A stretch of 54,842 nucleotides of DNA from Thermovibrio sp. (GTDB taxonomy: Bacteria > Aquificota > Desulfurobacteriia > Desulfurobacteriales > Desulfurobacteriaceae): the NCBI GenBank assembly GCA_003978105.1, contig QOAO01000012.1, positions 1-54,842 on the forward strand. The letters are read 5' to 3'. Below the pieces are notes generated by a model. It was not told the origin of the DNA, did not search any database, and saw only the letters and a list, made by a program, of their open reading frames with translations. Below, piece after piece: positions 1-11,346 of the stretch. Position 1 is the first letter of the stretch, and each line of letters starts with the position of its first letter. The position numbers and the translations under genes were made by a program.

Positions 1-258
1 TTTCTGAAAAAACTTTCAGACTTTAAGCTAAATGAAAGGGGATTTAAAAAACTGATGCCGGAGCTCCGCAACAAAATGGAAGCTTATGGGATTTTCGGAA
101 AGTTTGAAAGGGAGCTCTTTGACTTGGCTTCCGAATACTTTGCTCGGTCTAACAACCCGTGGAAGTTAAGCCTAGAGGAAATGAACTTCGTTTTTGCCGT
201 TGGAATGGGAATGAAAAATAGGGTTTACGGTAAACACTTTAATAACGAGGAGGATTAA
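1..258 (+). pseudogene. C-terminal part of Cas8b/Csh1 (type I-B Cascade large subunit), cut by the window edge
   Basis: The frame is open from the first base and ends at TAA 256-258. The ~85 visible residues (LKKLSDFKLNERGFKKLMPEL, then a Lys/Glu-rich helical stretch, then EEMNFVFAVGMGM) resemble the helical C-terminus of Csh1/Cas8b, the large subunit of type I-B interference complexes. The conserved features are a run of short helices and a final hydrophobic EExxFxFxxGM segment. The next gene is cas7/csh2, the usual order in I-B operons. Whether the upstream part is intact cannot be seen, but the neighbour is broken, so the operon is probably dead. The family call rests on remembered pattern plus context and is moderate. 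Confidence 0.6.
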
Positions 259-846
259 GAAGCGCCGTGAATATCTGTTCTTTTACGATGTAACAGATGC
301 AAATCCAAACGGTGACCCGATGGATGAAAAAAGACCGAGAATTGATGAAGAAGTAAATATCTGTTTTATCACCGATACGAGATTAAAGAGAATTATTAGA
401 GATGAACTGGCAGATATAGGAGAAGAAATCTTTATCCGTGAAGAGAGAAAGGAAGACGGCACTTTAAAAACAAAGGAGGAACTCTTAAAGCTCTACGACA
501 ATGGAGACTACAACGAAATAATCAAACGCTGTATAGATATAAGACTCTTCGGTGGAACATTTGCAGTAGGAGACAACGCAAAAAGCTTCACAGGAGCAGT
601 CCAGTTTAAATTCGGAAGATCTCTTCACAAAGTTACAGTTAAACTCATAAAGGGAACCACTGTAATGCCTTCAAAGGAGCAAAAAGGACAGGGAACAATG
701 ACAGACTTCTACGTTATTCCTTACGGATTTTTCTGCTTTTACGGTATAGCAAACGAGAAGGCTTCAGAGGATACAGGGTTAACCGATGAGGATTTAAACA
801 AGATGACAAAGGCTATGTGGTACGGAGTCAAGATGAAAGCCCGCAG
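254..846 (+). pseudogene. Cas7/Csh2 (type I-B backbone protein), start codon lost and 3' end truncated
   Basis: Cas7 forms the crRNA-binding backbone of type I Cascade. The frame reads KKRREYLFFYDVTDANPNGDP, then DEKRPRIDEE and a VTD-like TDTRLKRIIRD segment, which is the classic Csh2 N-terminus. It continues to AMWYGVKMKAR, where intact Csh2 has AxW.GTK..TRSK. No ATG, GTG or TTG exists in frame between the upstream stop (212-214) and the conserved block. The only candidate is ATT at 254, directly abutting GGAGG (249-253), too close for normal initiation. An internal ATG at 320 would delete the conserved N-terminal strand. About 200 of the usual ~290-300 residues remain before similarity stops at about 846, where the structured element begins. 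The stop at 860-862 lies in the element. Confidence 0.72.
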
Positions 847-1211
847 GTGCGTAAGCATCTAAGATATGCTATAATGACAGCATCTTCCCTGCGTTCCCGA
901 TGAAGCCTGCGGGTAGGGTGAAAGCCCCGCCAAGTGGGCAATGCCCTTAGACTGCCTGTAATAAGGTGGGTATCCCACCTCTGGCAAGCAAGTCCGAAGC
1001 AGGTGGAGGGTAAACGGCCAAATAGCAGGGAAGACATTGGAAAAGAAATGTCGGGATGAACATCCTGACAGAAGTGTAAAGGTATCTCCAAGTCCCTGCA
1101 AATAGCAGGGATAGGAGTAGAGGGTGGAGTGAGACCGCCCGGAGGGATAAGGGTAGGGATAACCTACCAAACTCCCTCAGAAGCTCCGTCCGTGAGAGCG
1201 GAGTAGTTCAC
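847..1211 (+). mobile_element. Structured non-coding mobile-element relic (IS200/IS605 omega-RNA-like right end; group II-like 5' start)
   Basis: There is no credible protein here; the stretch is dense in hairpins: AGGTGGG/CCCACCT (964-980), GGGC/GCCC (935-945), GACAT/ATGTC (1033-1052), GGATG/CATCC (1054-1065), GAGGGA/TCCCTC enclosing GGTAGG/CCTACC (1142-1178), and a terminal CTCCG/CGGAG hairpin (1184-1203) followed by TAGTTCAC. AATAGCAGGGA occurs twice (1021 and about 1100). The terminal hairpin plus GTAGTTCAC resembles the right ends of TnpB-type IS200/IS605 elements, where the omega-RNA 3' end lies. The first bases after the cas7 similarity, GTGCG, also match a group II intron 5' end, and CCCGCAGG upstream pairs with CCTGCGGG in the element. 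No domain V, reverse transcriptase, tnpA, tnpB or iscB is visible. The class is unresolved; that it is a mobile, RNA-like insertion is well supported. Confidence 0.55.
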
Positions 1212-1356
1212 TAACTTTCCAATAAAAGGCAAACCAAAATCTCAAACTTCCTATTAACGAAGAAGGTTTAATTTTGTTATTTTCCTGCCATGCATCCCCT
1301 GTCCAGAGAGGAGTTATCGTTTTAAATGTTACTTCTATCTTTTTCCTATCTCCCAC
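1212..1356 (-). pseudogene. N-terminal fragment of a Cmr1-like RAMP protein (type III-B CRISPR), truncated by the element
   Basis: Reading leftwards from GTG 1356, preceded by a strong GGAGGAGG, the frame gives VGDRKKIEVTFKTITPLWTG, then about 15 linker residues and SSLIGSLRFWFAFYW. The pattern (strand, TPLWTG, then IGSLRFWF) is the N-terminal ferredoxin-like half of Cmr1, which starts with xTPLxTGG and IxGSLRWW. Similarity runs right up to the end of the structured element, so only about 48 codons of a normally ~300-450 residue protein remain. It lies 18 nt downstream of the HcyBio gene on the same strand. Other cmr genes are absent, so this is a dead remnant. Confidence 0.62.
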
Positions 1357-1374: not shown

Positions 1375-2586
1375 TTATTGTTTTCTGTAGTCATATTCTA
1401 TAACAACGTTGGGCTCTGGAGCCGGAAGGGTTTCTGCAGGCTCTGATATTTCAAACTTTCCGCTTTTTATCCACTCCTTTAGCATCTCTGCAATCTCCTT
1501 TGCCTTATAGTAGGATGAAACTGGGGAGGTCGGAACCTTTTTCCCTTCTATTTCTATGAATCCCCGACGGAGCTCCCCGTAACTTACATACTTTATCGGC
1601 TTTGGATTTCCGGACGGGTAGTCAACAGAGTAGTCTATAACCGGGGCAAATATCTCATCGTCCCTAACCGAAGTGTAGTAAGCAATCCTCTCGTTCAGGA
1701 TAGGAATTGGAATTCCAATTCCAACAAACATTGAAACGCCGTAGCCCAAAATTGAAGCCGCTTTTACAAAGTCCGTTGACATCTGCTTCATATCGCCGAC
1801 AACCATCAACGTTCCAGCTCCCTCCATCGGTTGCCCCTTCTTACTCCTCCTAACGCCAAAGGGAGAGTGCTGAGTTCCGTGAAAGGCTACATATCCAATT
1901 CCACCGCCTAAGAATATTCTCGTTCCAATTCCTATTGTTTCGAAAAAAGGGTCGTTCATAAGGGGAGAGAGCTGCCCCGCTCCGGAGTAGGTTGCATTTC
2001 CAAAGTTTGGCTTCAGCGTTCCCATGTACGTGTAAATAGTTCTGGAGGATTTATTGACTGTAACGTTGTAGTTCTGATATGCATTCCTCGGACTGCACAG
2101 AATTGCATCGTTTATTGTTTTTATGTTTATGAGCTTCTTAATCTCCCTCCTTGGGTAACAGTCGGTTCCGTAGGCGTAGGCCTCAAGTTCAATATCCTCT
2201 CCAGCAATCAACTCCTCTATAACGTGGGCTCCGCCGTACTCAAACCTTCCGGGATAGACCTCGTTTCTCGGGTCGTTTTCGGGAAGGGCAGTAGCCCCGA
2301 TGTAGAGGTCTACGGCAGCAATTCCTCCGTAGGCCGGAATGCCGTTTAGATAAATCTCCTCCATCTTCATTCTCGGCTTTGTATGGCCGACATTCAGAAA
2401 GGCACCCGAGGAACACATCGCTCCAAAAGTTCCCGTTGTAACAACGTCAACTTCTTCAGCTGCCTTAACAACTCCGAGCTCCTCAACAATCTCTATCATC
2501 TCTTCGGCTGTAACAACTACAGCCTCTCCCTTCCTTATCTTCTCGTTAATCTCCTTGTAGGTTTTATTAACCTTGAACTTTTCCAT
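1375..2586 (-). CDS. Homocysteine biosynthesis (HcyBio/DUF39) family protein
   Basis: About 403 residues matching the HcyBio/DUF39 family, which in methanogens and sulfur-dependent bacteria helps incorporate sulfide into aspartate semialdehyde to give homocysteine, or otherwise handles sulfur. Visible signatures are GTFGAMCSSGAFLN with Cys58, GTDCYPRREI, LCSPRNAYQNYN and a glycine-rich FLGGGIGYVAFHGTQHSP stretch. Conserved cysteines in the first two are the expected functional residues. I take ATG 2586 as the start: it follows the rimO stop by one base and has TTGGAG about 8 nt upstream. A start 27 nt earlier inside rimO is open but less likely. No C-terminal CBS or ferredoxin domain is present. 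It is translationally close to rimO, in a sulfur/selenium-themed cluster. Confidence 0.78.
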   Translation of the reverse strand: MEKFKVNKTYKEINEKIRKGEAVVVTAEEMIEIVEELGVVKAAEEVDVVTTGTFGAMCSSGAFLNVGHTKPRMKMEEIYLNGIPAYGGIAAVDLYIGATALPENDPRNEVYPGRFEYGGAHVIEELIAGEDIELEAYAYGTDCYPRREIKKLINIKTINDAILCSPRNAYQNYNVTVNKSSRTIYTYMGTLKPNFGNATYSGAGQLSPLMNDPFFETIGIGTRIFLGGGIGYVAFHGTQHSPFGVRRSKKGQPMEGAGTLMVVGDMKQMSTDFVKAASILGYGVSMFVGIGIPIPILNERIAYYTSVRDDEIFAPVIDYSVDYPSGNPKPIKYVSYGELRRGFIEIEGKKVPTSPVSSYYKAKEIAEMLKEWIKSGKFEISEPAETLPAPEPNVVIEYDYRKQ

Positions 2587-2587
2587 C

Positions 2588-3907
2588 CTAATACTCCAAC
2601 TTCTTACTTTCATTTATAGGTTCCGCAATTAAATCAACATTACTTGCAAGTTCTGTAACTTTACCTTTAACAATCTGTCCGGGCTTAAAGTTGCCCTTAA
2701 GGTAAATTATTCCGTCTATCTCGTAAGCATTCCTGTAGCTCCTTGCCTCTAAAAATCCCGGCATCTCTTCACTTTTCCTGTCAACTATGAGGTCAAATTC
2801 TTTTCCAAGGAACTCCCTGTGCTTCTTTTCGTAAATCCAAAACTGGGTTTCCTCAAGGAGAGATAGTCTGGACTCCTTTATTTCTTCGGACAAATCTCCC
2901 ATTCGGTAGGCAACGGTTCCCTCTTCCCTATAATATTTAAAGAAACCTACCCAATCAAGTTCATAGTCCTTTATGAAGGAGTGGAGCTCCTCAAACTCCT
3001 CTTCACCCTCAGTTGGAAATCCCACTATGAAAGTGGTTCTTATGGCTATTCCCGGAATTCTCTTTCTCAGCTTGTTTATCAGGTCCTCCGCTTGTCTTCT
3101 TGTGTACTTTCTTCCCATTGAGGAGAGGACTTTGTCACTCACGTGCTGGAGGGGAATATCCAGATATTTAACAACTTTCTCGGAATCCGATATGAAGTCT
3201 ATGAGTGAATCGGAAATATGGGAAGGATAGGTATACATGAGCCTTATCCACTCAATTCCATCTATCTTTTCAAGTTCTTTAAGGAGTTTCAAGAGTCCTT
3301 CCCTCTCCCCTCTGTCGAAAAGGTAGGCCGTTGTATCCTGCGCAATTACGTAAAGTTCTTTGACTCCTAAGTCTGAGAGCCTTTTTGCTTCCTCAACAAC
3401 TTCATTTGTCTGCCTGCTTTTTAGCTTTCCCCTTATAAGGGGAATTGCACAGTAAGTACAACCGTTGGAACACCCTTCTGAAATTTTCAAGTAAGCAATG
3501 TGTTTTGGGGTTAAGACTTCTCTCAGTAAGTACGGCTTCGTATACGAAACTTTTCTGTTCAGTATCCTTTCAACGCTTTCAAGGATTTCGTTAACACCTA
3601 TAAAAGCATCAACTTCCGGAAATTCTTTTTTTAACTCTTCCTTGTATCTTTGATAGAGACAACCTGCAACGAAGATTCTTTTCTCGGGTGAACTCTTTTT
3701 CTCCTCTACGGCGTTGAGTATTTCGTCTATTGACTCTTCCTTTGCCGGTTGAATAAAACCGCACGTATTCACGAGGATTATGTCGGCATCTTTAAGGTTA
3801 TCAACAAAAACCACATCACCGGTTGACTTTAAAAGGCCAACCATCGTTTCGGTATCAACCAAATTCTTAGGGCATCCAAGACTTATAACGGCAACTTTCT
3901 TCTTCAA
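2588..3907 (-). CDS. rimO: Ribosomal protein S12 methylthiotransferase RimO
   Basis: Radical-SAM methylthiotransferase that adds a methylthio group to the conserved Asp of ribosomal protein S12 in the cytoplasm. The N-terminal MTTase domain carries ISLGCPKNLVDTE with Cys12, plus Cys49 (NTCGFI) and Cys83 (AGCLYQ), which bind one 4Fe-4S cluster. The radical-SAM CxxxCxxC is SEGCSNGCTYCAIP (Cys146/150/153). A TRAM domain occupies roughly the last 65 residues. The LGCPKNxVD and SEGC motifs separate RimO from MiaB, which also occurs in this window. The start is TTG, with AAGGTGA just upstream inside the end of selD. Length (439 aa) is normal. Confidence 0.96.
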   Translation of the reverse strand: MKKKVAVISLGCPKNLVDTETMVGLLKSTGDVVFVDNLKDADIILVNTCGFIQPAKEESIDEILNAVEEKKSSPEKRIFVAGCLYQRYKEELKKEFPEVDAFIGVNEILESVERILNRKVSYTKPYLLREVLTPKHIAYLKISEGCSNGCTYCAIPLIRGKLKSRQTNEVVEEAKRLSDLGVKELYVIAQDTTAYLFDRGEREGLLKLLKELEKIDGIEWIRLMYTYPSHISDSLIDFISDSEKVVKYLDIPLQHVSDKVLSSMGRKYTRRQAEDLINKLRKRIPGIAIRTTFIVGFPTEGEEEFEELHSFIKDYELDWVGFFKYYREEGTVAYRMGDLSEEIKESRLSLLEETQFWIYEKKHREFLGKEFDLIVDRKSEEMPGFLEARSYRNAYEIDGIIYLKGNFKPGQIVKGKVTELASNVDLIAEPINESKKLEY

Positions 3908-3908
3908 T

Positions 3909-4946
3909 TCACCTTACCTCTATTCTGTTTCCTCCCGTAATTCTACCTACCACCCTGCTCCAGAGCTCCCCTCTCTCCTTCAACTTTTCAAGGAGCTCCG
4001 ATAATTTTCCCTCAGGTACAGAGATTAAAAGCCCTCCAGAGGTTTGAGGGTCAAAGAGAAGCATTTTCAAGTCATCGTTAAATCCATCGGGAAAAACTAC
4101 ACTATCTCCAACGTACTCCTCGTTGTCGTAGGTAGCAGCAGGAAGAAGCCCCATACCTGCGTAGTTTAGAGCCCCCTCTAAAATAAGAAACTCTGAGGAG
4201 TAAACCTCAGCTCCAACACTGCTAAATTTAACCATTTCGTATAGGTGTCCCAAGAACCCGAACCCTGTAACGTCGGTACATGCATTTACTCCTACCTCTA
4301 CCATTACCTCTGAGGCGATTTTATTGAGGTGAACCATGACCTCTGTAACTCTCTCAACCTCTTTCTCTGTTGCCACGTCTGCCTTTACTGCAGTCGTTAG
4401 GACGCCAATTCCTAAAGGCTTTGTATAGACTAAAAAGTCCCCAGGCTTTGCAGTTGAATTCCTTACAATTTTTTCTGGGTGAATAGTTCCCGTAACTGAG
4501 AGTCCGTACTTCGTTTCTAAGTCGTCAACAGTATGTCCTCCCACAAGTGAAACTCCTGCTTCCCTTAACTTATCAGCTCCTCCCCTTAAAATCTCAGTTA
4601 AGAACTCCTCGGGGACTCTACACGTGTCAAACATTAAGAGGTTTACAGCAGTAATAGGTTTTCCTCCCATTGCATAAACGTCAGATAGGGCATTGGCCAC
4701 GGCAATCTGTCCGTAATCGTAAGGGTCATCAACAACCGGAGTAATGAAGTCTGCAGTCTGAACAAGGGCAAGTTCATCACTCAGCCTGTAAACTCCAGCA
4801 TCCTCAGAAGTATCCATCCCAACTAAAACGTTCTCATCCTTGGGAAAACTTATCCGAAATAGAGCTCTCTCAAGCCCGACCGGGCTGAGTTTTGCTCCTC
4901 AGCCGGATGCCCTGACGGTCTGAGTTAACTTAAACTTCCTACTCAA
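3909..4946 (-). CDS. selD: Selenide, water dikinase SelD, itself a selenoprotein (in-frame UGA = Sec16)
   Basis: Makes selenophosphate from selenide and ATP, the donor for selenocysteine and selenouridine. From ATG 4817 the protein looks truncated, but the same frame continues upstream through a TGA (4899-4901) and reads [16 protein letters not shown], exactly the SelD catalytic loop with Sec and the essential Lys. The likely start is TTG 4946, overlapping the queC end by 8 nt, giving 345 residues, the usual SelD length. Downstream motifs include [28 protein letters not shown] and FGFLGHL (AIRS-type fold). A SECIS-like hairpin follows the UGA. The host should therefore encode SelA, SelB and tRNA-Sec. 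rimO follows after one base. Confidence 0.93.
4873..4901 (-). promoter_or_regulatory. Sec UGA codon of selD and its bacterial SECIS-like hairpin
   Basis: On the minus strand the UGA (4901-4899) is followed after 17 nt by AGCCC-GGUC-GGGCU, a five-pair stem with a GGUC apical loop (4886-4873). In E. coli fdhF the apical GGUC that SelB recognises lies 18 nt after the UGA, so both loop identity and distance fit. The hairpin is within the coding sequence, as in other bacterial SECIS elements. Confidence 0.8.
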
Positions 4947-5646
4947 GTATTTTTCCCTCCTCTTTCAACCTCTTTATAAGGTGGTCCTCCTCTCCAACTT
5001 CTGCCCAACCCTTGGCCCTCAGTATACAGCTATCGCATCTCATACAGGGAATTTCCTCTCCCCTGTAGCAAGAGATGGAGTAGGAGTAATCGGCTCCAAG
5101 TGAAAGCCCAAGTTTTATTATCTCACCTTTTGTTAACTTTATTAAAGGAGCATGGATTTTCCAATCTTTCCCCTCACTTCCTAACTTCGTTCCCCTGTTT
5201 AAGGCCTCCTCCATTGCAGAGAGGAATTCAGGCCTACAGTCAGGGTAACCGCTGTAGTCGACGATGTTCCATCCTCCAACGATGTTAGTAGTTCCCCTAC
5301 TTTCGGCGTAAGACGCAGCTATAGATATAAAAACCCCATTTCTAAATGGAACGTAAGTTATTGGAATTCCTCTCTCCTCTATTTCCTCAACAGATTTAGT
5401 TTCAGGAACCTCCAAGTTCTTATCCGTCAGGGCAGAACCTCCAAACTTTGAAAGGTCCACCTCAAAGAGGAGGTGTTCATCAACTTTTGCCCTTTCAGCC
5501 GTTCTCTTAGCCATTTCAACTTCTATAGAGTGTCTCTGACCGTAGTAAAAGGTTATGGCGTAAACTCTTTTGAACTTTCTCTTTGCCCAGTAAAGAGCGG
5601 TTGTTGAGTCGAGTCCACCTGAAAAAATCACAACAGCAGAGTCCAT
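4939..5646 (-). CDS. queC: 7-cyano-7-deazaguanine synthase QueC
   Basis: ATP-dependent conversion of 7-carboxy-7-deazaguanine to preQ0 in queuosine biosynthesis. The N-terminal PP-loop SGGLDST (residues 9-15) binds ATP. The C-terminal zinc site is [15 protein letters not shown] (Cys193, 201, 204, 207). Length of 235 is typical. ATG 5646 has AAGGAGAT upstream. It is the first gene of the minus-strand group queC-selD-rimO-HcyBio, with the last 8 nt shared with selD. No preQ1 riboswitch is evident in the 83-nt divergent gap upstream. Confidence 0.95.
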
Positions 5647-5666
5647 CTTTATCTCCTTAAACGGGT

Positions 5667-5695
5667 TTGACTGGTAATTGATAACTAATTAAAAT
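5667..5695 (+). promoter_or_regulatory. Sigma70-type promoter for glyQ-glyS-ppdK
   Basis: TTGACT (5667-5672), a 17-nt spacer and TAAAAT (5690-5695) lie about 30 nt before the glyQ ribosome binding site, in the divergent gap between queC and glyQ. Both boxes are one mismatch from consensus with ideal spacing. No equally good box is seen for queC on the other strand. Confidence 0.6.
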
Positions 5696-5729
5696 TACGC
5701 CGAAAATTATCATACTGTGGAGAGAAACG

Positions 5730-6602
5730 TTGACGTTTCAGGAATTGATATTCACACTTCAAAACTACTGGTCTAAACAGGGTTGTATTATAGCCTCTCC
5801 GTACGATGTTGAGCAGGGCGCAGGGACGATGCATCCATTTACATTTCTAAAGGTTCTTGGAAGGAAACCTTGGAAAGTTGCATACGTCCAGCCGTGCAGG
5901 CGTCCTGCGGATGGAAGGTACGGGGAAAATCCCAACAGACTCCAGCACTACTTCCAGTTCCAGGTAATTTTAAAGCCGTCCCCTGAAAATTCACAGGAGC
6001 TCTACTTAGGAAGTTTGGAGGCCTTAGGATTTGATCTTAGGGAACACGATGTAAGGTTCGTTGAGGACGACTGGGAATCCCCGACACTTGGAGCCTGGGG
6101 ATTAGGCTGGGAGGTCTGGCTTGACGGGATGGAGATAACCCAGTTCACCTACTTTCAGCAGGCAGGGGGAGTAACGTTAGACCCTATTTCGGTAGAGATA
6201 ACCTACGGACTTGAGAGAATCGCAATGTACATCCAGAACGTTGACAGTGTTTACGATATAGAGTGGACGAAGGGAGTTAAGTACGGAGACCTTTACAAGG
6301 AAAACGAGTACCAGTGGTCGGTATACAACTTTGAAAAATCCGACCCTAAGATGCTCTTTAAACTCTTTGAGATGTTTGAGAAAGAGTCCGAAAGGCTCGT
6401 TAATGAAGGCTTAGTACTTCCTGCCTACGATTACTGTCTAAAGTGCTCCCACATTTTCAACCTCCTTGATGCAAGGGGAGCAATTTCTGTTGCAGAGAGG
6501 GCAGCCTTTATAGGAAGGGTTAGGAGATTGGCTGCAGCCTGTGCAAAAAAGTATCTTGAGATTGAAGAGGTAGAAGGTGAAGGTGAAAAACTTACTACTT
6601 GA
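5730..6602 (+). CDS. glyQ: Glycyl-tRNA synthetase alpha subunit
   Basis: Catalytic (class II) subunit of the bacterial alpha2-beta2 glycyl-tRNA synthetase. Hallmarks are [51 protein letters not shown] and the helical [24 protein letters not shown]-terminus. Length of 290 is typical. The start is TTG at 5730 with GGAGAG about 6 nt upstream. The 3' end overlaps glyS by 26 nt, which implies translational coupling. Confidence 0.97.
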
Positions 6603-8646
6603 AATAGGAACTGAGGAACTCCCTGCCTCTTTTATAGAGCCTGCTCTTAATTACATAGAGGAAAAACTAAAGGAGAAACTGTCAGCTGAACACATTCCTC
6701 CAACATCGGTTGAAACCTTCGGAACTCCGAGAAGGCTTATAGCCATTGCCTACGATGTACCTGAGGAGCAGCCAAAAAGGGAGGAATTGATAGTAGGTCC
6801 TTCGTACAGGGCAGCCTTTGATGAGAACGGAAATCCAACAAGAGCTGCACAAGGATTTGCAAAATCAAGGGGAGTAACGGTAAATGACCTTATAGTTGTT
6901 GAGAATCCTCAGGGAAGGAAGGGAAAGTACGTAGCTGTTAGGAAAGTTGTAGAGGGAAAAAGAACAGAGGAAGTTTTAAAAAAAATACTTCCTGAAATAA
7001 TTCTCTCCATTCCCTTTAAGAAAAGCATGAGGTGGGGAGAGAAGAACGTAAGGTTTGCAAGGCCTATTAGGTGGATAGTTTCCGTTTTTGGGGATAGAAC
7101 AGTTGAATTTGAAATTAACGGAATAAAGAGTTCAAACGTATCCTACGGACACAGATTTCTCTCCCCCGAACCTTTTCAAGTTGAAAGTCCAAACGAATTT
7201 TTAACTCAGCTTGAGGACAGGTTCGTAGTTGCAGACTTAGAAAAGAGAAAAGCTATTATCCTTGACGGCTGTAAGGATTTGGCCTCGTCAATAGGTGGAA
7301 AGCTCTTAGAAGACGAGGAACTCCTTGATGAGGTTACAAATTTAACGGAGTTTCCTTATCCCATTTTGGGAGAGTTTGATAGGGAATTTTTAAACCTTCC
7401 AAAGGAAGTTCCCATTACGGTAATGAAGGACCACCAGAAGTTTTTCTCGGTAGTCGATGGGAAGGGAAATCTAAAAAACTACTTTATAGGCGTATCCAAC
7501 ATAAAGCCAACGGACGACCTAACAGTTAGGTTGGGATACGAAAAGGTTTTAAGGGCAAGATTGAGCGATGCCCTCTTCTTCTTTAAAGAGGACAGGAAGA
7601 GGAAGTTGGAGGATAGGGTTCCAGAGCTCCAGGGTGTTGTTTTTCACGAAAAGCTAGGAACCATGCTTGATAAAACTAAGAGACTGGAAAAGCTAACTCC
7701 TTTTATTTCGGAAGAACTGAAATTTGACGTTGAGAAAAGGGCAGAGAGGGCTGCCTACCTTTCAAAGGCAGACCTATTAACGGAAATGGTCAACGAGTTT
7801 CCTGAGCTCCAGGGAACGATGGGCAAGTACTATGCCCTTTTAGACGGAGAGGATGAGGAGGTAGCTCTATCCATAGAAGAGCAGTATCTTCCAAGGTTTT
7901 CAAAGGATAGAGTTGCAGAAACAAAGACGGGAATTTCCCTTTCCTTATCTGAAAAGATAGATAACTTAACGGGATTTATAGGAGCAGGACTTAAACCTAC
8001 AGGTTCTGCAGACCCCTTTGCCCTCAGGAGAAACGCTTTAGGTCTAATACAGACGCTAATAGAGAACGAAATCTCACTCAACCTAACTCCTACACTGGAG
8101 AAGTCTGAGAAGCTTTATGAGGAACAGGGAATTGAACTATCCCTTAGTACAGTTTCAGAAACCCTTCAGTTTATAAAAGATAGACTGAAAAACTACTTAA
8201 GAGAAAAGGGATTTAGACCTAACACAGTGGATGCAGTTCTCTCAGTATCTGACAACCCTTACGATTCCCTTTTAAGGGTAAGGGCTGTTGAAGTTTTGAG
8301 GGAAAACCCCGAGTTTGAAGCAGTTCTTTTTACGATGAGGAGGGTTGTAAACATTATTCCCGAAGGATTTGAACTGGTTCCACTCTCTCCCGAGGGTAAG
8401 TACGAGGAAGAGCTCTGGAATGCCTTTTTGAAACTCAAAAGTGAACTTGACAAACTCATTGAGAAAAGGGACTACAAGGGAGCCCTCTTAAAAATTGGGG
8501 AGCTAAAGCCCTTTGTTGATAGATTCTTTGACAACGTTATGGTTATGGATAAGGATGAGAAAGTTAGGAATAGGAGATTGAGCCTTTTAAAGAACATAGC
8601 AGATAAGCTTTTAGAGCTCATAGACTTTTCAAAAATCGTTTTTTAG
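6577..8646 (+). CDS. glyS: Glycyl-tRNA synthetase beta subunit
   Basis: tRNA-binding beta subunit. It begins [14 protein letters not shown] and shows [40 protein letters not shown] and [20 protein letters not shown], all diagnostic, then a C-terminal anticodon-binding helical domain with [19 protein letters not shown]. At 689 residues it is normal. Two GTG codons (6577, 6583) could start it, both inside glyQ; the internal AGAGG of glyQ is the likely ribosome binding site. ppdK follows 12 nt later. Confidence 0.97.
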
Positions 8647-8658
8647 GGAGGCCCGGAT

Positions 8659-11346
8659 ATGTCTAAAAAAATGGTTTACTACTTCGGTGGAGGTAAGGCC
8701 GAAGGTAGTGCAGAAATGAAGATGCTCTTAGGTGGTAAAGGGGCGAACCTTGCAGAGATGACTAACTTAGGTCTTCCAGTTCCGCCTGGAATAACAATAA
8801 CAACGGAAGTTTGTAAAGAGTACTTTGAATTGGGTCAAAAGTTCCCCGAAGGAATGTGGGAACAAGTCTTGGAAGGTTTAAGAAAAATTGAACAGGAGAT
8901 GGGGAAAAAGTTTGGAGACAAGGATAATCCCCTCCTTGTTTCTGTGAGGTCTGGAGCTCCCGTCTCCATGCCTGGAATGATGGACACAATCCTCAACTTG
9001 GGTCTCAACGATGAAACTGTTGAGGGACTGGCAAAATCAACGGGAAATGAGAGGTTTGCCTGGGACTCCTACAGAAGATTCATTCAGATGTTTGGAAACG
9101 TTGTAATGGGAATTCCCCACGAAAAGTTTGAGGAGATTTTAGAGAAGAAGAAAAAGGAAGTTGGAGCAAAGCAGGACGTTAACCTCACTGCAGAGGACCT
9201 AAGGGATGTTGTAAAGAGGTACAAGGAGCTTGTAAAGAGGGAAACAGGAAGGGATTTCCCTCAGGACCCTTACGAACAGTTAAGGATGGCAATAAAGGCT
9301 GTTTTTGATTCATGGAACAACCCAAGGGCTATTAAGTATAGGGAAATTAACAAGATTCCAGAGAACTACGGAACTGCTGTAAACATCGTTGCAATGGTAT
9401 TTGGAAATATGGGAGAAACCTCGGGAACGGGAGTTGCATTTACAAGGAACCCCTCAACGGGAGAAAACGTCTTCTACGGAGAGTACCTCAAGAATGCCCA
9501 GGGAGAGGACGTTGTTGCAGGGATAAGAACTCCACAGCCACTAACAAAGTCTCAAAAGACAAGTCAGGAGCAGACATCCCTTGAGGAGGAGTTTCCCGAG
9601 GTCTACGAGCAGCTCTTAAAAATCAGGGACATTCTTGAAAAGCACTACAGGGACATGCAGGACATAGAGTTTACAATAGAAAATGGACGTCTCTGGATGC
9701 TTCAGACAAGGGCAGGAAAGAGGACTGCAAGGGCTGCAGTGAAGATTGCAGTTGATATGGTCAAAGAGGGACTAATAACGAAAGAGGAAGCCATTCTCAG
9801 GATAGACCCATCCTTAATAAACCAGCTTCTTCACCCTATGTTGGATGAGGAGGACAGGAAGAGGGCAATAGAGGAAGGAAGGCTTATTGCTAAGGGACTT
9901 CCTGCTGCTCCAGGAGCGGTAAGTGGAAAGATTGTCTTCTCAGCGGATGAGGCAGTTGAACTTGCTGAGAAGGGAGAGAAGGTAATCCTTGTTAGGCATG
10001 AAACCTCTCCTGAGGATATCCATGGAATGCATGCAGCAGAAGGAATACTGACTGCAAGGGGTGGAATGACATCCCATGCTGCCGTTGTTGCAAGGGGAAT
10101 GGGTAAAACATGCATCGTTGGAGCTGAGTCAATACACGTAGATTACGAAAAAGAGGAGTTTAGAGTAAGGGACGTTGTAGTTAAGAAGGGAGACGTAATA
10201 ACGATTGATGGAAGTACAGGAGAGATATTCCACGGTGAATTAAGGACAATTCCTGCACAGATTTCCGGTGAATTTGAAGAGTTAATGAAATGGGCAGATG
10301 AGATAAGGGACCTCCAAGTAAGGGTTAACGCCGATACCCCAGAGGATGCCAAGCAGGGAAGGGATTTTGGAGCAGAAGGAATCGGCTTGTGTAGAACGGA
10401 ACACATGTTCTTTAAAGAGGAAAGAATTCCCGTTGTTAGGGAGATGATACTTGCAAAGACAGAGGAAGAGAGGGAAAAGGCCCTTTCAAAATTGCTTCCA
10501 ATGCAGAGGGAGGACTTTATAGCAATTTTTGAGGTTATGAATGGGCTTCCTGTCAACATAAGGTTATTAGACCCACCTCTTCACGAGTTCCTTCCTAAAA
10601 CCGAGGAGGAGTTTGAAAGAACTGCAAGGGAAATGGGACTTCCTGTTGAGGAGATAAAGGAGAGGGCTGAGGAGCTCCACGAAATCAACCCAATGTTAGG
10701 TTTAAGGGGTTCAAGGCTTGGAATTGCATATCCTGAAATCTACAAGATGCAGGCAAGGGCAATTTTAGAGGCTGCGTGCCACTGTAAGAAGAACGGAATA
10801 GACGTTCTCCCTGAAATAATGCTTCCTCTCATTGCTGATGATAGGGAGCTCTACGAGCTCAAAAAGCTGATAGATGACGTTGCAGCTCAAGTTTTCCTTG
10901 AAACGGGAACCGAGGTTGAATACCAAGTTGGAACAATGATTGAAGTTCCGAGGGCTGCTCTAATAGCTGACCAGCTCGCCCGCTACGCCCAGTACTTCTC
11001 ATTTGGAACCAACGACCTAACACAGATGACATTCGGCCTTTCAAGGGACGATGCCGGAAAGTTCATTGGAAAGTATGTTGATATGGGAATACTGAAGGGA
11101 GACCCGTTCCTCCACATCGATGAGAACGGTGTTGGAAAGCTCATTGAAATAGCAATAGAAAAGGGGAACTCTGTAAGGCCAAAAATGAAAACAGGAATTT
11201 GTGGAGAACACGGGGGAGACCCAAGGTCAATTAACTTCTTCCAGAAAGTTGGTGTTAAGTACGTCAGCCCATCTCCATTCAGGGTTCCAATAGCAAGACT
11301 TGCAGCAGCTCAGGCTAAGATTAGACAGCAGAGAGGAGAATTGTAG
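8659..11346 (+). CDS. ppdK: Pyruvate, phosphate dikinase
   Basis: Interconverts pyruvate + ATP + Pi and PEP + AMP + PPi; in autotrophs it makes PEP for gluconeogenesis. Domains in order: ATP-grasp (LGGKGANLAEMTNLGLPVPPG at the N-terminus, GTGVAFTRNPSTGE near 255), central phosphohistidine domain (GGMTSHAAVVARGMGKTC, catalytic His473) and the PEP/pyruvate TIM barrel (GLCRTEHMFF, GLRGSRLGI, SFGTNDLTQMTFGLSRDD, TGICGEHGGDP with acid/base Cys848). The 895-residue length is that of PPDK and longer than PEP synthase, and the FG/LGGKGANLAEM start supports PPDK. ATG 8659 follows GGGAGG. Co-transcription with glyQS is likely from the 12-nt gap, although the functions are unrelated. Confidence 0.97.
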   Translation: MSKKMVYYFGGGKAEGSAEMKMLLGGKGANLAEMTNLGLPVPPGITITTEVCKEYFELGQKFPEGMWEQVLEGLRKIEQEMGKKFGDKDNPLLVSVRSGAPVSMPGMMDTILNLGLNDETVEGLAKSTGNERFAWDSYRRFIQMFGNVVMGIPHEKFEEILEKKKKEVGAKQDVNLTAEDLRDVVKRYKELVKRETGRDFPQDPYEQLRMAIKAVFDSWNNPRAIKYREINKIPENYGTAVNIVAMVFGNMGETSGTGVAFTRNPSTGENVFYGEYLKNAQGEDVVAGIRTPQPLTKSQKTSQEQTSLEEEFPEVYEQLLKIRDILEKHYRDMQDIEFTIENGRLWMLQTRAGKRTARAAVKIAVDMVKEGLITKEEAILRIDPSLINQLLHPMLDEEDRKRAIEEGRLIAKGLPAAPGAVSGKIVFSADEAVELAEKGEKVILVRHETSPEDIHGMHAAEGILTARGGMTSHAAVVARGMGKTCIVGAESIHVDYEKEEFRVRDVVVKKGDVITIDGSTGEIFHGELRTIPAQISGEFEELMKWADEIRDLQVRVNADTPEDAKQGRDFGAEGIGLCRTEHMFFKEERIPVVREMILAKTEEEREKALSKLLPMQREDFIAIFEVMNGLPVNIRLLDPPLHEFLPKTEEEFERTAREMGLPVEEIKERAEELHEINPMLGLRGSRLGIAYPEIYKMQARAILEAACHCKKNGIDVLPEIMLPLIADDRELYELKKLIDDVAAQVFLETGTEVEYQVGTMIEVPRAALIADQLARYAQYFSFGTNDLTQMTFGLSRDDAGKFIGKYVDMGILKGDPFLHIDENGVGKLIEIAIEKGNSVRPKMKTGICGEHGGDPRSINFFQKVGVKYVSPSPFRVPIARLAAAQAKIRQQRGEL

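Follow-up and report, generated by a model that had tools for sequence, protein, structure and literature searches.

Pieces of two CRISPR effector genes of different types, a type I-B cas7 and a type III-B cmr1, are joined through the remnant of a single transposon in the stretch of Thermovibrio DNA analysed here (54,842 nucleotides, hereafter the window). The 381 bases that separate them (831-1211) are, to judge from their sequence, a tnpB-less, non-autonomous derivative of an IS200/IS605-type element, and the two ends of this relic differ: a clean right-end tip adjoins cmr1, and a truncated left end adjoins cas7. The boundary with cmr1 looks like the edge of a transposon insertion. The boundary with cas7 does not stem from ordinary transposition, because the left end is truncated in comparison with all six other copies. 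The junction probably records one insertion into cmr1 and a subsequent illegitimate rearrangement that broke within the left end of the element, most likely an inversion. The features of the locus are as follows.

1..258, + strand: final 85 codons of a type I-B cas8b, stop codon intact (PF09484 and comparison with the Desulfurobacterium genome G017)
254..830, + strand: cas7b/csh2, codons ~2-193 of ~305, the 3' third missing (TIGR02590 and alignments of relatives)
831..832, + strand: left junction between cas7 and the truncated transposon left end, where no more than 2 nt (AG) can be assigned to either side (cas7 of relatives and left-end copies)
831..864, + strand: interior portion of a type A left end of the IS200/IS605 kind, which lacks its outermost ~40 nt and, with them, the 5' hairpin arm
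865..875, + strand: extended -10-like motif TATGCTATAAT (same spacing in the G013 copy)
882..1077, + strand: folded segment in which 883-892 is predicted to pair with 1025-1034 in a long-range stem (a single other copy, G013:C25)
1078..1206, + strand: last 42 tnpB codons and stop, overlapping the omegaRNA-like segment (blastx and Rfam)
1207..1211, + strand: right-end tip TTCAC, which reads TAGTTCAC with the three preceding bases (25 of 27 other right-end matches)
1212..1356, - strand: first 48 codons of cmr1 plus one base, GTG start, cut at the right-end tip (PADLOC Cmr1)
1375..2613, - strand: HcyBio-domain gene, the host-side anchor of the locus (PF01837, E=9.3e-155)

Two truncated effector genes

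The window is very probably one whole contig, since a search with the Cmr1 fragment places the window's own protein (P0241) on a contig of 54842 bases, and the first base of the window falls within cas8b. Pfam model PF09484 identifies window 1-255 as the C-terminus of Cas8b (E=1.4e-14, model positions 531-601 of 602), the PADLOC profile agrees (2e-15), and the piece is 75% identical to residues 484-568 of the G017 Cas8b. The gene that follows scores 193 bits against the type I-B Cas7 model TIGR02590 (Csh2), for which the cut-off is 171.55 (E=7.5e-57, positions 1-202 of 286), and is 85% identical to residues 2-194 of the G017 Cas7. Homology with this full-length protein extends from window 254 to 832 and ends at about codon 193, directly before the VISRSKFGHMPR stretch of intact relatives; as full-length relatives go on with ...GVKESTDVISRSKFGHMPR, cas7 is cut just before the RSK motif. 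An earlier note on this DNA had read its left side as type I-B, with the end of cas8b and a cas7 cut near a TRSK-like motif, and the two profiles and the alignment of relatives bear this out. Full-length Cas7 proteins that are 93-96% identical to the piece are represented by 11 database proteins among the matches listed (P0001-P0011; jgi or ena sources), and close kin of this strain therefore own an intact cas7. The ATG start of the relatives' cas7 is gone from the window, which has AGG-ATT-AAG against ATG-AT in the relatives. Over window 242-262, a ribosome-binding-like GAGGAGG leads directly into ATT-AAG, where the relatives have a spacer and the ATG.

On the opposite strand, the frame 1356-1212 is the start of a type III-B cmr1, and the profile similarity bears out what the same note had proposed: PADLOC Cmr1 matches with E=3.8e-27 and Pfam RAMPs with 1e-7, and the NCBIfam model TIGR01894 gives 26.2 bits (E=7.6e-6), a score just below its cut-off of 28.65 for what is a short piece. 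The closest compared relative is G017 (36/43 residues), and the Cmr1 proteins of relatives extend beyond the point at which the window's frame is cut. The HcyBio-domain gene lies 18 nt upstream of cmr1, and window 1390-9813 is collinear with G001, the nearest compared genome, at 93% identity. In G003:C16, from the same genus as G001 (L055 10759-11513), the contig ends within cmr1 after ~251 codons. The cas7 and cmr1 pieces thus confirm that parts of two different genes flank the element, which, as the earlier note argued, takes more than a simple insertion.

A transposon relic with one clean and one broken end

The region 832-1216 folds strongly (z = -7.1 against 100 dinucleotide shuffles), in keeping with the structured element that had been noted at the join. 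Its left-end core and its right end match those of tnpB-bearing copies in G017 and G008, which identifies it as IS200/IS605-type, with an incomplete left end; TnpB was named by eye and on Rfam and positional evidence. Members of the family are repeated in relatives, e.g. G007, G008, and G017, and tnpB-like frames accompany both types of ends, type A in G017 (L018) and type B in G017 (L019) and G008 (L022, a shortened frame).

The left-end piece is 94% identical over 36 columns to a copy in G001 and 93% identical over 29 nt to copies in G008 and G017. All six other type-A left ends, which were gathered by pattern with at most two mismatches in 22 family genomes, carry the ~40 outermost nt, which include the 5' hairpin arm. 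Five of the six are preceded at a fixed spacing by TTAT, and the target rule is only approximate because the sixth, G001:C6, has no TTAT at that spacing. TTAT also precedes each of the three type-B left ends found by pattern, a pattern that found none in L026-L029. At the window's left junction, no TTAT occurs within the ~40 nt before it. The opposite end, in contrast, is clean: the tip TAGTTCAC recurs in most of the other right-end matches (12/12 in one set and 13/15 in a second, the exceptions being L081, which reads TAATTCAC, and L079, which has no tip), and cmr1 homology reaches the codon that adjoins it. The statement in the earlier note that both genes are cut exactly at the element therefore describes the cmr1 side well, but on the cas7 side it is a truncated left end that meets the gene. 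The right-end hairpin is kept across copies, with changes on both sides, whereas the left hairpin of the window is without its 5' arm. Since the right-end hairpin of the window is of type A, like its left end, and the same holds for the tnpB-bearing G017 copy, the copy in the window was probably complete at one time.

Two further arrangements of the family were observed. G001:C6 (L024 ~3350-3581) carries a ~230-base mini-element whose left and right ends belong to this family and which has neither a full tnpB nor the folded core; it adjoins a GTPase-like gene (named by eye). Type-A left ends of G008 (L020 2840-5545, L021 2480-3742, L064, L065) are followed by an integrase-like ORF, also named by eye, which stands directly before tnpB in L020 and before a right end without full tnpB in L021; it is apparently a second transposase carried in, or inserted into, the element family.

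The state of the left end bears directly on the origin proposed in the earlier note, namely, homologous recombination between a copy of the element in cas7 and another in cmr1, with inversion or deletion of the interval between them. The repetition of the family in relatives accords with this proposal, and inverted copies would give the observed orientation. However, it predicts a complete left end beside cas7, where the ~40 nt with the 5' hairpin arm are missing, and the copy in cas7 would itself be no normal insertion, given the truncation of its left end and the lack of a TTAT within the ~40 nt before it. Nor is there a second copy of the element within the window. The proposal would stand only if the copy in cas7 had been truncated beforehand, and it is considered quite improbable, below both the inversion favoured here and the deletion discussed below. 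The inversion that it allowed for is favoured by synteny, but the two copies are doubtful.

A rare folded core

Between the left end and the tnpB remnant lies a folded segment that was found elsewhere only in G013:C25, i.e. in 1 of 136 phylum genomes by DNA search (92% over 189 bases) and likewise in 1 of 136 with a covariance model built from both copies and stricter filters; the window and G013 cores align over 162 columns. An 18-base pattern from the segment occurs in 11 records of genome_contigs, which are taken as chance because about 7 would be expected, by a rough estimate from the size of the collection, and the local alignments around it span just 18-23 nt. The pattern had no occurrence in viral_contigs, a 28-base pattern at the left side had none in genome_contigs, and a plasmid search with window 820-1260 returned no match.

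The two copies of the segment form more stable predicted folds than their mononucleotide shuffles (z -4.9 and -4.2). Between the two, no pair carries changes on both sides, and differences are rarer at paired sites to an extent that is not significant when a single sequence supplies the structure (p=0.18 and 0.10), so that the comparison does not establish selection on the fold. An Rfam search with the segment returned no convincing family. An origin from HEARO/IscB had been considered on account of a resemblance of motifs; Rfam lends it no support, with no HEARO (RF02033) match up to E 10 in window 865-1085 or in the G013 copy. A sub-threshold HEARO-like match in G014 is adjoined by no IscB-like ORF, as judged by eye from the four ORFs listed there.

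Ahead of the shared core by 6 nt, in the window and in G013 alike, ends a TGNTA(A/T)AAT motif. A promoter scan found no full sigma-70 site, and this extended -10-like motif is the only such element common to the two copies; it may be residual homology. The ends that surround the common core differ, being of type A on the left and right in the window and of type B in G013. The occurrence of one core between two end types in two genera would, on the unlikely guide-RNA reading discussed below, point to an RNA unit that transposon families have in common.

The rarity of this core also weighs against the idea that the junction is an assembly artefact, in which a repeated element led to reads from two loci, or from two strains, being assembled together. 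In favour of such an artefact, the end of the contig is only 830 bases away, the element family is repetitive in relatives, and close variants of cas7 are present in the protein collection. Moreover, a search with the Cmr1 fragment, which took in candidates of similar length only, gave six matches, among which the ending in element sequence is confined to the window's own contig. A truncated Cas7 with the window's ending was not recognised among the best 120 of 1887 matches, a result that carries little weight because the window's own frame is also absent from those 120. A chimera is very improbable, both because the core through which it would have formed has a single other copy in 136 genomes and because two genuine junctions would be required even so, one of which leads into a truncated left end.

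Operon order in relatives and the origin of the junction

CRISPR systems of both types are patchy in the family, with Cmr1 matches in 6 and Csh2 matches in 3 of the 22 genomes, and in 1 and 0, respectively, of the 6 genomes in the genus of G001; their loss is thus not surprising. In the two genomes that carry both genes on one contig, G017 and G020, cmr1 and cas7 are co-directional and ~10 kb apart; the genes between them were named by ORF order and size, and only cmr1, cas8b, and cas7 were tested. No relative with the window's order and intact genes came to light, cas7 and cmr1 facing each other in neither of the two genomes, which agrees with the earlier note's view of the arrangement as derived. 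The ancestral layout may nonetheless have differed, because the gene that cmr1 follows is the HcyBio gene in the window but a cas6-like gene in G017.

The G020 Cmr1 (L014 7437-8660) is farther from the window than the G017 protein (22/43 vs 36/43 residues), yet the G020 Cas7 is slightly closer (87% vs 85%). These identities may reflect separate exchange of the III-B and the I-B module.

These observations can be accommodated by a two-step course of events. A non-autonomous IS200/IS605-type element that had lost its tnpB core would have inserted into cmr1 near codon 48, retaining at that time its left end, the folded segment, the omegaRNA-like segment, and its right end. Later, a single illegitimate rearrangement would have broken the DNA inside the left end, ~40 nt from its outer edge, and in cas7 near codon 193, and the broken left end and cas7 would have been joined across no more than 2 nt of common sequence. 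Most likely, this step was an inversion of the segment from the 3' part of cmr1 to the 5' part of cas7, which would have turned cas7 to face cmr1. Inversion is preferred because cmr1...cas8b-cas7 are co-directional in both genomes with both genes on one contig, a view of the ancestral order drawn from two genomes (G017 and G020).

The same insertion followed by a simple deletion would be the alternative if the I-B and III-B operons were convergent in this strain. All DNA from the left end to cas7 codon 193 would then have been lost, perhaps including CRISPR arrays and adaptation genes. Such a deletion is likewise a single event with the same breakpoints, a convergent order would bring cas7 and cmr1 into the observed orientation, and G014, which has a Cmr1 match and no Csh2 match, indicates that the two modules need not be linked. 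However, none of the compared relatives is convergent, and both genomes with the two genes on one contig are co-directional; the deletion is therefore an unlikely, if reasonable, alternative.

With the inversion, as with the deletion, both systems would presumably have lost function at this locus. The description of two dead CRISPR systems in the earlier note holds to that extent, but not for the genome as a whole, in which intact copies may exist elsewhere. No CRISPR array was seen in the window, whose + strand contains no repeated exact 22-mer.

The tnpB remnant and a putative guide RNA

The last 42 codons of tnpB survive next to the right end (73.8% identity over 42 aa to TnpB 431-472 of G017 by blastx, E=2e-16). 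They overlap a segment that is spanned in its entirety by a match to Rfam sot0042, at 24.2 bits against a gathering score of 88 (E=2.5e-4 in a search of 521 bases). Across 12 aligned copies (the window and 11 of the 12 others, the short one from G001 having been set aside), the fold from 1078 to the tip is conserved, and 13 of the 45 predicted pairs have changed on both sides. Part of this covariation signal would also be expected from a conserved DNA hairpin at the tip. A conserved structured segment that overlaps the tnpB 3' end and terminates at the right-end tip corresponds to a predicted omegaRNA. According to the part of the source that concerns sotRNAs, these share position and structure with the omegaRNAs of IS200/IS605 tnpB and are treated as such (PMC12558985), and the passage on right-end RNAs in a second paper describes them as ~150 nt long, with the last ~16 nt derived from flanking DNA (PMC8612924). 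In the window, the flank 3' of the omegaRNA-like segment is cmr1 sequence.

With the -10-like motif ahead of the shared core, a transcribed guide RNA from a tnpB-less element is conceivable, but the fold of the two cores lacks covariation, the bias at paired sites falls short of significance, and the scan found no full promoter. It is tempting to go further and to picture a mobile unit without tnpB that encodes a guide RNA of its own, borrows TnpB from other copies, and thereby defends its insertion in cmr1: the -10-like motif would drive an RNA composed of the folded domain (883-1034), the omegaRNA-like segment, and a guide copied from cmr1. This picture is distinctly unlikely as a whole. In the titles and abstract openings of the literature, no tnpB-less omegaRNA with an added domain was reported, which for texts of that length is not proof of absence.

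Relation to known systems and significance

Among described elements, the relic is probably best filed beside the PATEs and terminal-only IS605-type elements of Haloquadratum. In the portion of the source that describes them, PATEs are too short to encode a transposase and have near-terminal palindromes similar to IS605-type transposons, and terminal-only copies that arise by deletion of the core are mentioned for IS605-type elements (PMC3119063). The window element resembles what is described there in the absence of a transposase gene, a near-terminal palindrome at its right end, and a heterogeneous interior, but it is bacterial, keeps an omegaRNA-like and a separate folded segment, and has a truncated left end joined to cas7. 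With tnpB elements of its own family (G017:C1:746332-747825; G008:C1 near 860-862.5 kb), it shares the left-end core and the right end, and its TnpB C-terminus is 74% identical to that of G017; nearly all of tnpB is gone, however, and the folded segment stands in its place. Its right-end segment has the conserved fold and the position, at the tnpB 3' end and the right end, of sotRNA/omegaRNA (RF02656; PMC12558985, PMC8612924), together with a full-length sub-threshold match, whereas the score of that match is far below gathering and there is no tnpB in cis. As for the cas genes, the combined III-B/I-B operon of Desulfurobacterium (G017, G020) is among the closest compared relatives of the gene pieces, and it is co-directional and not cut in this way, whereas in the window the genes are cut and lie head to head.

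Transposon-linked decay of cas genes is commonplace, and the junction is mostly a matter of ordinary genome decay in which the relic carries an unusual folded region. Titles and abstract openings of the literature held no report of a cas7/cmr1 junction, which again does not prove that none exists. The junction is mainly a clear worked case, in which a comparison of both ends of the same element distinguishes a boundary left by insertion from one left by rearrangement. It is the core that deserves further attention. Should an element without tnpB express an omegaRNA extended by a folded domain, stripped transposons could persist by means of a borrowed nuclease, and, if this is true, such self-maintenance would here sit inside a CRISPR effector gene.
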